A DNA stretch of 26,598 nucleotides, taken from positions 1 to 26,598 of IMG/VR virus record IMGVR_UViG_3300032298_000645. The stretch is one strand, 5' to 3'. Under the pieces are notes generated by a model. That model was not told the origin of the DNA, made no database searches, and worked only from the letters and a program-made list of their open reading frames with translations. The position numbers and the translations under genes were made by a program. Of this stretch, positions 18,800 to 22,989 are shown piece after piece (the stretch's first letter is position 1; every line of letters begins with the position of its first letter). This DNA is from a virus.

Positions 18800-19525
18800 A
18801 TGGGATTGCCAAAGATTGATGTGCCAGTTTATGATATGACTGTACCATCCACAGGAAAGGTTATTAAAGTTAGACCTTTTTCTGTTAAAGAAGAAAAGAT
18901 TTTATTTATGGCTTTGGAGTCTAAAGATATGGACTCTATCATTACTACAGTTAAACAAATTATTAATAACTGTATTGTTGAAGGTGAGTTGGATGTAGAT
19001 CGTGCACCATTCTTTGATATTGATTATGCTTTTATTTTTCTAAGGGCAAAATCGGTCGGTCCATCTGTAGAAGTAAATCTGACCTGCAATAATGTTCTAG
19101 AAAGTGGTGATAAATGTGGTAACATATTTGAAACGTCTATGGATATTGCAAACTGTGATATTATGAAGGACGAGGAAATAAATCCTGAGATTGATCTCGG
19201 TAAAGGTAGTGGTATAAAGATGAAATATCCTAACTATGCTGTTATCAAAAGAATTGAAAGTAGTGAAGCAATCGATAAAAAGACCACAATGATTGTTAAT
19301 TCAGTTGATTATATCTGGGACAAGAAAGGGCAATATTCATCTAAAGACTATTCTAAAGATGAATTAAAAGATTTTGTTGAAGGTCTGACAGAAGAAAATT
19401 ATAAGAAACTGGAAAAGTTTATTGATCATCTTCCAGTATTTGTTGTTAAAATGGATGCAACATGCACTAGATGTGGGTTTGAACATCATGTGAGGTATTC
19501 AGATTTCTATGATTTTTTTTTCTAA
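18800..19525 (+). CDS. gp26: gp26-like baseplate hub / tail assembly protein with CxxC motif
   Basis: The 241-aa protein has the T4 gp26-family N-terminal pattern KVIKVRPFSVKEEKILFMAL (residues 20-39) followed by KQIINNCIV. A zinc-ribbon-like set is possible: C96 and C106 in the middle, and C222-x-x-C225 followed by H229 H230. gp26 is a T4 hub-assembly protein, and in related phages this slot is thought to hold a chaperone of the tape measure. It has a good ATGGAGA ribosome site. Its last codons are GAT TTT TTT TTC TAA within a run of nine T (19513-19521), and the stop overlaps the next ATG (TAATG). A -1 slip on the run would extend it into the 75-aa frame. Confidence 0.82.
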   Translation: MGLPKIDVPVYDMTVPSTGKVIKVRPFSVKEEKILFMALESKDMDSIITTVKQIINNCIVEGELDVDRAPFFDIDYAFIFLRAKSVGPSVEVNLTCNNVLESGDKCGNIFETSMDIANCDIMKDEEINPEIDLGKGSGIKMKYPNYAVIKRIESSEAIDKKTTMIVNSVDYIWDKKGQYSSKDYSKDELKDFVEGLTEENYKKLEKFIDHLPVFVVKMDATCTRCGFEHHVRYSDFYDFFF

Positions 19526-19527
19526 TG
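19513..19527 (+). promoter_or_regulatory. Candidate -1 frameshift site and TAATG coupling junction
   Basis: Nine T at 19513-19521 are followed by CTAATG. In the gp26 frame the codons are TTT TTT TTC TAA. In the -1 frame they are TTT TTT TTT CTA ATG, with no stop before the 75-aa gene, so T TTT TTT is a good slippery heptamer. Downstream structure is weak (GCCA...TGGC around 19532-19547). Restart at the overlapping ATG is a non-exclusive alternative. Confidence 0.5.
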
Positions 19528-19752
19528 ATGGGCCACGATAAACTGGCAAATTATTATAAAACAAACTTTGGTATGATCGAACATCATCAATGGCGCCTTG
19601 AAGAACTTGAAAGTATGATGCCTTGGGAGAGATATGCATATATTGATATGCTGCAAGAATATCTCCGTGAGGAAGAGAAGAAAGCAAAACAGAAAGAACA
19701 AGAAAACAAGGCCAAGTGGCAACAAATGCAACGAGCAGCCATGAGAAGGTAA
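19525..19752 (+). CDS. 75-aa helical protein, candidate tail assembly chaperone partner
   Basis: The N-terminal half is distinctive: YYKTNFGMIEHHQWRLEELE, then SMMPWERYAYIDML. The C-terminal half is a charged helix or coiled coil rich in Lys, Glu and Gln. I recognise it as a type of small protein often seen after gp26-like genes in marine T4-like phages, without an assigned role. It may correspond to the gene 51 position, but I see no sequence match to T4 gp51. Its ATG overlaps the gp26 stop, and its own stop is directly followed by the next ATG (TAAATG). In lambda-type phages two overlapping small genes just before the tape measure encode assembly chaperones joined by a -1 frameshift, and the same layout is seen here. 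Confidence 0.75.
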   Translation: MMGHDKLANYYKTNFGMIEHHQWRLEELESMMPWERYAYIDMLQEYLREEEKKAKQKEQENKAKWQQMQRAAMRR

Positions 19753-22700
19753 ATGATCAAGATAGATAAATTCAGTTATAAAAGTCTTAGAAAACTAACA
19801 GTTGGTGAAAGACTTAATGCAGTAAAAAGTCCTGATGTCGGGTTTGCACTTATGTCTGCATTGACACCTACCCAAATCGCTGAGTTATTTCCACGATATT
19901 ACTTGATGAGAGAACCAGATATATCTGGATTCCTCAAAGCCGTACCATCTAGTGTGCAGGCAGCCAGACAACAATATTATGATGAACAATTAGAGAGAAC
20001 TGCCACAGGTTCTAAAGAAGGTGCACCGCTTGAACCAGGTACTAAGAAGACTTGGTGGGAAAAAGTAAAAGAAACTGTATCTGGTGGTACAACTAAAGTT
20101 TTAAAGCCTGGTGAGGTGCCAACATATAAACTAACACCAGAACAAACTGCAACATATGATTTATTAAAGTCAGGTCAGAATGTTGAGTCAAATGATCCTC
20201 GTACCAAGTTTATGGCTACACTGACACCGGAACAATTAAAGACAGTTGGCTTAGAGAAGATTAAGAGTGAAGATGGAAAAGAAATGTTCCACTTCAACCA
20301 AGAGGCATTTAAGGCATCTGAGGAAGAGGCTAAGAAAAGTTTAGAATCTAAAAGTGGCCAATATGCGCCTACTGAATCCGCCGGCGAAAAGCAACGAGCA
20401 ATTATTAGAGAAGCTAATAAATTAAATGTTAGTCCAACCGACCTAGCAACTGTAATGATGTATGAAAGCGGTGGAACATTGAATCCTGATAGAAGGGGAC
20501 CTGCTGACCGCCGAGGCTCGGCTGGGCAGGCCATTAGTCAAGGTGCCCAACCAACAATGTTAGGACTTATACAGTTTGGTGCTAAAGAACAAATTGATTA
20601 TGGTGTCAAACCTGGCATGGGATTCGATGCCCAAATGGAATGTGTAGGTCGATATTTAAAAGATAGGGGATATACAAGATGGATTAATGAACATCCTAAT
20701 GCTACACCTGAGCAGAGAAGAATTGCACTTTATTCGACAATTAATGCTGGTGGTCCTGATGAAAAGAATTGGTCTAAGACCGATAGATGGATGGGAGGGG
20801 CTCCTGGAAATGTGGCAGATAAGGCAACATCTATGTTTGGTGGCGCCTGGTATAAAAATGCTTCTAAACTTATGGAAGGCTCGGTAACTACAGGAAGTTC
20901 CGGAACAATAACATATGACAAATTGCAGGCAGAACAAAGAGCCTTAGAAACCCAAAGGGCCGCCGGTGCAGTAGGTAAATTAGCAGAATATACCGGAGCC
21001 CAGATGGGTGCACCAGGTGCTCCAGGTGTATCTACAACCGCACAGACTGAAGGTACCAAAAAGCTGAATGAAATTACCTCTTATCACTCTGCTGGTAAGG
21101 GATACTGTGGTATTGGTACCAGACTAGCTGCAAGAGACCTATTTGGTGACAAGTATTTCTCTGAAGGTCTATCGAAAGGTGGATCTGCACAAGCATCTTC
21201 ACTATCAAGAGATAATAATTATTTCCAAGGGTCTGGATATTATAATGCTAAACAAGATATTGAGAAAGAAAAGGCAACTGATCCTAAGTATTTAAATTCT
21301 CTACCAATCGGTACTGTAATATCTGCACAGGGCGGTAATGTTCACGGTGATGGCCACGTCCAAATTAAACTAGGTCCAAACAAATGGGTCAGTTATTTCG
21401 ACCAGTCTGGTGTATTAGGTCAAAGATCGGATGGTAGGCAGTATCATGGATATTCTGTTCATGTTCCTAATGAAAAGGGTCTTGCTAGAATTGGTGAGAG
21501 AGGTTTTGCTACAGTCGTTAATGCTCCTGAGGGTCAACCTGCTCCTGCTCCTACTATAGAAGAAGCCCATGATGTTCAACAAAGCCATCCTACGGCAGAT
21601 AGAAAATTAGATGAACCAACTGCTGAAATTGATGCACAAGGTAGACCTAGAGCCGCAGGACAGGCACCTCTAACACCTAGTGATGAAGCTGCTCATACCA
21701 ATGTAACGATTAGACGTAAAGATGATTCATCTAATGTGCCTATGTATGAACCTGGCCCTCCATCAACCTCAGCACCTGCTGTAAAAGGACTAGGTGATGT
21801 AACTCAACCAACTCCTTCTACACCAGCACCAGGCGAGGCACCTATAGTTGCACCTAAAGTTGTGCCAAAGGGAACTAAAGAACCTGCGGCCGCTGTTCCT
21901 CAAGCACAGGCTGAACCTGCTACACCAAAAGAAGCAAAGTTTAAATTTGATCCTAATCTATATGAACAGACTATCGTTAATAAGTATGGTGATTTTGCAG
22001 TTCATACAATGGGTGGCCATAATCAAAAGTCTCTTGTTCAGGAAATGGTTAACAAGTTACCTGCTGGTGTAAGATATGAGAAAGGCCACCTTGTAGGTGA
22101 TCCTAAAGGTATTAGAGAGGTTATGTCAGGTTTTGATACAGAATTTGGTACAGGTACTGGTGGTAAACTATTCAGTGAGGTTAAACCTAAAGAAACAAAG
22201 CCAGAGGTTAAACCTGTAGAACAGCCTCAACAGGGCCTAGAAAAGTTTATGGAAAAGCCTGTTGAGCCAACTCCTGCACCACAGACTCGGGCACCAGCAC
22301 CTGCACCGACTATGACGCAAAGTGGTACACCATCAGCAACGGTAACACAATCACCTGCACCACAGGCTCAGGCTGCACCACAAGCACCTGCACCACAGGC
22401 TCAGACTGCACCACAACCACCTGCACCACAGGCTCAGGCTGTGCCAAAAGCAGAACCTCCAAAGGCTGCACCAAAGGCTGATACTCCAAAGATTGAAGTA
22501 AAAGCTACTGGTGGTACGGCTCCTGCTGATAGTCATATTCAGGCATATCCTATCGGTGGTCTAAGAGGTGATAATTCTGTAGTGGTAGATGCACAACAAC
22601 AGCCATTGTTCACTATGAATACCAAAACAGAGGCTTTGCTACCAAACCCACAAGAGAATAGAGTGGATGTGGTACCAACACAGAAGCAAACGAATAGTGC

Positions 22701-22989
22701 TAATGAACAGGCACCTAACCCAATGCAAAGGTTCTCTGATGATTTGGAAAATGTAAGACACGAAATTAAGTCTGCTTTTAGTGATATGAGTGTTAATAAT
22801 GATGTAACCGGTAGGCCTGCTAGGAATACTATAACAGACCGTGACAGTCATATGATCGACGGGCTATTGGATTCCACTAGAATAGCCTATAAGAATCCTA
22901 CATCACAAAGAGCGTTCAATCGTTCTAGATTCCATGAGACTGGTGATCCAACGAATGATTTCCATCATAGCATTGGTAATACCGCATAA
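19753..22989 (+). CDS. Large tail protein with lytic transglycosylase-like and CHAP/NlpC-like domains
   Basis: The protein has 1078 aa. Residues 30-65 hold the conserved-looking ALTPTQIAELFPRYYLMREP. Residues about 210-370 look like an SLT/goose-type lysozyme domain: YESGG with candidate catalytic E238, then GLIQF (271-275) and a NAGGP loop. Residues about 440-570 look like a Cys-His peptidoglycan peptidase or amidase: GYCGIGTR with C452, and HGDGHVQIKL with H535, then KWVSYFDQ. Residues 595-920 are Pro/Ala-rich and probably disordered, with 11-aa repeats. The C-terminus (about 929-1078) has a GGLRGDNSVVV segment. It follows two chaperone-like genes, where a tape measure would lie (gp29 in T4), but its low-complexity parts are unlike a helical tape measure. 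It most likely acts at the tail tip to open the cell wall. Domain calls are from motifs only. Confidence 0.75.
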   Translation: MIKIDKFSYKSLRKLTVGERLNAVKSPDVGFALMSALTPTQIAELFPRYYLMREPDISGFLKAVPSSVQAARQQYYDEQLERTATGSKEGAPLEPGTKKTWWEKVKETVSGGTTKVLKPGEVPTYKLTPEQTATYDLLKSGQNVESNDPRTKFMATLTPEQLKTVGLEKIKSEDGKEMFHFNQEAFKASEEEAKKSLESKSGQYAPTESAGEKQRAIIREANKLNVSPTDLATVMMYESGGTLNPDRRGPADRRGSAGQAISQGAQPTMLGLIQFGAKEQIDYGVKPGMGFDAQMECVGRYLKDRGYTRWINEHPNATPEQRRIALYSTINAGGPDEKNWSKTDRWMGGAPGNVADKATSMFGGAWYKNASKLMEGSVTTGSSGTITYDKLQAEQRALETQRAAGAVGKLAEYTGAQMGAPGAPGVSTTAQTEGTKKLNEITSYHSAGKGYCGIGTRLAARDLFGDKYFSEGLSKGGSAQASSLSRDNNYFQGSGYYNAKQDIEKEKATDPKYLNSLPIGTVISAQGGNVHGDGHVQIKLGPNKWVSYFDQSGVLGQRSDGRQYHGYSVHVPNEKGLARIGERGFATVVNAPEGQPAPAPTIEEAHDVQQSHPTADRKLDEPTAEIDAQGRPRAAGQAPLTPSDEAAHTNVTIRRKDDSSNVPMYEPGPPSTSAPAVKGLGDVTQPTPSTPAPGEAPIVAPKVVPKGTKEPAAAVPQAQAEPATPKEAKFKFDPNLYEQTIVNKYGDFAVHTMGGHNQKSLVQEMVNKLPAGVRYEKGHLVGDPKGIREVMSGFDTEFGTGTGGKLFSEVKPKETKPEVKPVEQPQQGLEKFMEKPVEPTPAPQTRAPAPAPTMTQSGTPSATVTQSPAPQAQAAPQAPAPQAQTAPQPPAPQAQAVPKAEPPKAAPKADTPKIEVKATGGTAPADSHIQAYPIGGLRGDNSVVVDAQQQPLFTMNTKTEALLPNPQENRVDVVPTQKQTNSANEQAPNPMQRFSDDLENVRHEIKSAFSDMSVNNDVTGRPARNTITDRDSHMIDGLLDSTRIAYKNPTSQRAFNRSRFHETGDPTNDFHHSIGNTA
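22352..22450 (+). repeat. 33-bp tandem repeat, three copies (11 aa, PAPQAQ-type)
   Basis: Copies begin at 22352, 22385 and 22418, each starting CACCTGCACCACAGGCTCAG. They encode three PAPQAQ(A/T)-like units in the Pro/Ala-rich linker of the 1078-aa protein. The third copy diverges at its end. Confidence 0.85.

Follow-up and report, generated by a model that had tools for sequence, protein, structure and literature searches.

The tail assembly chaperone (TAC) genes of T4-like phages were reportedly identified by Vladimirov, Gautam and Davidson in 2022, with T4 gp26 assigned as the short form (TAC-N) and gp51 as the long form (TAC-NC); since these genes are already published, the idea of a T4-like TAC pair is not new. 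Our literature search on a gp26/gp51 frameshift returned only an indirect trail, leading from the PRFect paper to that 2022 study. In T4 the long form has a gene of its own, both according to the citing statement in PMC10885494 and on the T4 gene map, and polyT slippery sites have, as relayed by a citing text, been reported for T4-like TAC-N genes (Vladimirov 2022, cited in PMC12846349). In phage lambda, the short chaperone gpG is accompanied by gpGT, a minor form fused by a -1 shift, the slip occurring close to where the short gene ends (PMC5009743). The TAC genes of the Vandenendeviridae and Andersonviridae carry a GTTTTT slip motif (PMC12846349).

The locus described here lies in a window of 26,598 nt (the whole stretch of viral DNA that was analysed), with tail tube and tube-cap genes upstream of the chaperone genes (Table 1). 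The gp26-like protein matched Pfam PF12322 (1.6e-52) and PHROG 150 (3.3e-56), and its profile matched T4 gp26 over 204 columns (hhalign, E 3.2e-21), while the 75-aa ORF matched PHROG 634, 'baseplate hub assembly catalyst' (gp51), at 5.7e-23. The gp26-like gene ends in GAT (19511-19513) TTT TTT TTC TAA (19523-19525), within which nine T form an unbroken run (19513-19521). The 75-aa ORF is in the -1 frame relative to this gene and overlaps its stop codon by one nucleotide (TAATG). Onwards of the slip, the -1 frame runs TTT CTA ATG ATG GGC CAC and is free of stops, confirming the gene end and the open passage into the 75-aa gene as given in the initial annotation. A -1 slip on T_TTT_TTT allows full re-pairing in both the P and A sites, and the predicted TAC-NC fusion has a length of 317 aa (240 + 77 aa).

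Table 1. Features of the putative tail assembly chaperone locus (positions are those of the window).
Feature	Position	Strand	Basis
gp26-like gene, putative TAC-N (short tail assembly chaperone)	18800..19525	+	241 aa, zero-frame product; Pfam, PHROG and profile matches
Slippery heptamer T_TTT_TTT	19513..19519	+	Inside T9 19513-19521; conserved in relatives
SD-like candidate 5' stimulator GUGAGGUAU	19490..19498	+	Codon invariance and synonymous constraint; putative role
Zero-frame stop TAA	19523..19525	+	Read from sequence
-1 frame extension, putative TAC-C domain	19519..19752	+	PHROG 634; collinear with the T4 gp51 C-terminus
75-aa gp51-like ORF as first read	19525..19752	+	Two in-frame ATGs, 19525 and 19528
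1078-aa downstream gene, possible tape measure or tail protein	19753..22989	+	Only PHROG 196 match, E 0.033

The initial annotation had named a position just before a tape-measure or tail-tip gene as part of the hallmark of tail assembly chaperones. The 1078-aa protein encoded next had no match in Pfam, NCBIfam or PDB, and its sole family match, PHROG 196, carries the description 'baseplate hub'; as no tape-measure match was obtained from Pfam, NCBIfam, PHROG or PDB, the tape-measure name was dropped. Parts of the same protein resemble, by eye, a lysozyme or peptidase domain. At the other end of the window, an ORF on the minus strand (3-1904) contains long Pro-Thr repeats (PTPTxTP) and probably encodes a structural or fibre protein.

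A confident AF2 model was obtained for the gp26-like protein (pLDDT 87). The PDB fold match of highest probability was 2ob9, the tail assembly chaperone of HK97 (prob 0.69), but with E = 1 this is no more than suggestive of a chaperone fold; its matches in a viral structure library were T4-like gp26 proteins and one gp51. A PDB sequence search with the gp26-like protein returned nothing of note.

Taken by itself, the junction in the window proves little, since a T9 run is expected approximately 1.3 (1.34) times per shuffled window of equal size and is thus not rarer than chance. The 1-nt TAATG overlap is likewise a common arrangement, and the -1 phase follows automatically from it. The evidence for a frameshift rests instead on conservation, which settles the matter in a way that the window sequence alone could not. 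In the main tally, which comprised 75 distinct relatives of less than 90% amino acid identity, an in-frame T TTT TT[T/C] within the last 12 codons was scored against an expectation derived from synonymous shuffling with each gene's own codons. The heptamer was present in 75/75 relatives (32.6 expected), in 35/35 at less than 60% identity (13.1 expected) and in 19/19 at less than 50% identity (6.5 expected); these sequences are related and do not constitute independent trials, although the signal persists at low identity. Conservation of the two phenylalanines as amino acids would by itself favour T-rich codons, and it is this effect that synonymous shuffling controls for.

Because relatives might be selected by their C-terminus, a second search used gp26 residues 1-217 only, and the heptamer was present in each of the 56 non-redundant sequences that were readable as far as the stop. 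The first IMG/VR set (∼70 relatives) gave the same picture: every member has T TTT TTT/C within a few codons of the gp26 stop and an open -1 frame leading into a homologous peptide. A 14-mer scan was run with GTGAGGTATTCAGA as the query. The first Phe codon of the heptamer was TTT in 48/48 relatives. The same arrangement was found in isolates, including Kyanoviridae: S-PM2, P-SSM2, S-SSM7, DSL-LC03, Melnitz-1, DLP_6, phiM7, YB07, phiAS5, Cronobacter S13 and a KVP40-like Vibrio phage. The gp51-like domain is open in the -1 frame but unannotated in the public records of Cronobacter S13 (L082), DSL-LC03 (L092) and CBA120 (L078).

Excluded from the main tally were isolates whose junctions differ. 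Two Rhizobium phages have T TTT TTG at this point, while in Ackermannviridae (L078, L087, L093) and the Vibrio K444/D492 isolates (L085, L090) gp26 ends in ATT TTC ATT TAA or in CTT TTT/CTT TTC. The -1 frame of the Ackermannviridae and Vibrio isolates is open into a homologous C-domain despite these non-T_TTT_TTY junctions; a different slip site or a start codon of its own may serve the C-domain there.

The length of the T run varied considerably. Among the 40 GTGAGG-bearing members of the window's clade there were 30 with T7, two with T8 and eight with T9, and many marine relatives have a T6 run with the arrangement unchanged, indicating that the conserved object is the heptamer T_TTT_TTT/C and not T9. 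The expectation that relatives would keep both the T run and the -1 phasing was thus borne out for heptamer and phase but not for the nine-T length, and T9 was rejected as the signal, being unconserved in relatives and expected by chance. Runs of at least nine are prone to polymerase slippage, and T9 occurs in the window and in some sister contigs, so that a fraction of the mRNAs could in principle gain or lose a base and thereby fuse the two frames. However, the run is only T7 in the majority of clade members and T6 in many marine relatives, which makes transcriptional slippage, put forward as an alternative in the initial annotation, unlikely as a general mechanism; moreover, it needs no codon phase, yet the T_TTT_TTY phase is constant. 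We regard it as highly improbable at this locus, and while it may contribute to frameshifting where the run is T9, it cannot be the mechanism shared by all. The other alternative raised there, that a homopolymer sequencing or assembly error had split one gene, draws on the error-prone nature of homopolymers. It has a negligible probability, and dozens of independent records rule it out: 75 distinct sequences, drawn from many metagenomes as well as finished isolate genomes and differing in T count, show the same split.

T4 provides a natural control for this arrangement. T4 gp26 is collinear with the unshifted product and matched PHROG 150 but not PHROG 634, identifying gene 26 as the short form. 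T4 gp51 matched PHROG 150 over residues 3-248 and PHROG 634 over residues 147-246, and the profile of the in-silico fusion aligned with it without a gap across the junction (hhalign, E 3e-11). Since T4 gp51 belongs to the N family along its entire length, carries the gp51 family in its C-terminal part and aligns gap-free to the fusion, T4 gene 51 is the fusion encoded as one gene, in agreement with the assignment reported by Vladimirov and colleagues. The fusion model also explains why cyanophage gp51 is so short, only ∼20% as long as T4 gp51, and why it aligns to the C-terminus of the T4 protein (PMC3037559).

The C-terminal domain is predicted to be helical, and the -1 frame encodes a conserved, homologous version of it in all relatives compared. 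In 23 of 48 distinct relatives, the stretch of this frame that runs from its upstream stop to ∼9 codons beyond the gp26 stop codon lacks ATG, GTG and TTG alike, so the start of the conserved domain cannot be made there from an ordinary start codon. This bears directly on the possibility that these are two separate, translationally coupled genes, with ribosomes stopping at TAA and reinitiating at the overlapping ATG to make a gp51-like protein alone and no fusion. Such coupling requires no Shine-Dalgarno sequence and would suit both the 1-nt TAATG overlap and the window's clade, nearly all of whose members have ATG at 19528 or its equivalent. That codon is absent from many marine relatives, however, and even within the clade one member (L220) has CTG in place of the junction ATG (cf. 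window 19525-19530), leaving its C-domain without an ordinary start nearby. Coupling also has no need of a heptamer, yet every tallied relative keeps one, and in T4 gp51 the N domain is fused. We therefore consider coupling as the sole mechanism improbable, although the ATGs at 19525 and 19528 would allow some separate TAC-C to be made by reinitiation.

Production of a TAC-N (gp26) and TAC-NC (gp26-gp51) pair by -1 programmed ribosomal frameshifting is, on this comparative evidence, very probable, and the lambda G/GT equivalence proposed in the initial annotation is strongly supported. Most ribosomes would stop at TAA (19523-19525) and release gp26, while in a minority the Phe-tRNAs would slip back one base on U_UUU_UUU (19513-19519) and the ribosome would read through the gp51-like frame to yield the 317-aa fusion. 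If the pair works like lambda gpG/gpGT, TAC-N would coat the tape measure or hub protein and the C-terminal domain would bring in tail tube subunits, with both forms absent from the virion.

A possible stimulatory signal lies upstream of the slip site. Across 12 clade sequences (49-93% identical), the last 11 codons show the strongest synonymous constraint in the gene, the constrained stretch being GTG AGG TAT TCA GAY TTY TAY GAT TTT TTT. The codons GTG AGG TAY are invariant in the 40 GTGAGG-bearing relatives, while the codon that follows varies. In the window, 17 nt separate the end of the GAGG core of this SD-like element from the heptamer downstream, which exceeds the ∼10 nt between the SD-like element and the slip site of E. 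coli dnaX; in many marine relatives, GAGG lies 10 nt upstream. A conserved 3' stem-loop was sought in the window's clade and none was found: the predicted hairpin had a z of -0.75, and its arms, judged by eye, were not kept across the clade alignment. Hairpins stronger than shuffled sequence do occur at single marine loci (L022, L050, L057, L025) and differ in sequence between clades; just after the slip site they reached z -2.2 to -3.5 in L022 (3716-3800), L050 (3286-3370) and L057 (3708-3800). It is conceivable, if rather doubtful, that GUGAGGUAY 17 nt upstream of U_UUU_UUU is a distinct 5' stimulator which, together with a conserved junction AUG yielding free TAC-C, forms an unusual cassette. 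If so, three products (N, NC and C) rather than two would come from one mRNA.

The locus shares its protein families with the T4-like TAC genes, its gp26 being the unshifted product and T4 gp51 being collinear with the predicted fusion, but the long form is a separate gene in T4 and is predicted to arise by frameshifting in the window. With lambda it shares a short form, a predicted -1 fusion and the location of the slip site, late in the short gene. The lambda slip site is G_GGA_AAG as opposed to U_UUU_UUU in the window, the likeness drawn here is one of arrangement, and the gene downstream in the window is only a possible tape measure. In the Vandenendeviridae and Andersonviridae, too, TAC-N has a polyT slip site close to its end and the -1 frame continues without interruption (PMC12846349), but these are other phage families with GTTTTT in place of T_TTT_TTY, and they too are likened by arrangement.

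The locus thus belongs to a published kind, the T4-like TAC genes, to which the sequences of the window's clade add the invariant upstream GUGAGGUAY element and the AUG at the junction; these extra details are modest. The broader value is that sequences of an uncultured group and of many marine phages lend clear comparative support to the view that T4-like phages share the chaperone frameshift of other long-tailed phages, with T4 and its separate gene 51 as the exception among them. The gp51 'genes' in cyanophage records are accordingly unlikely to be genes in their own right, and their annotation should be changed to that of fusions.
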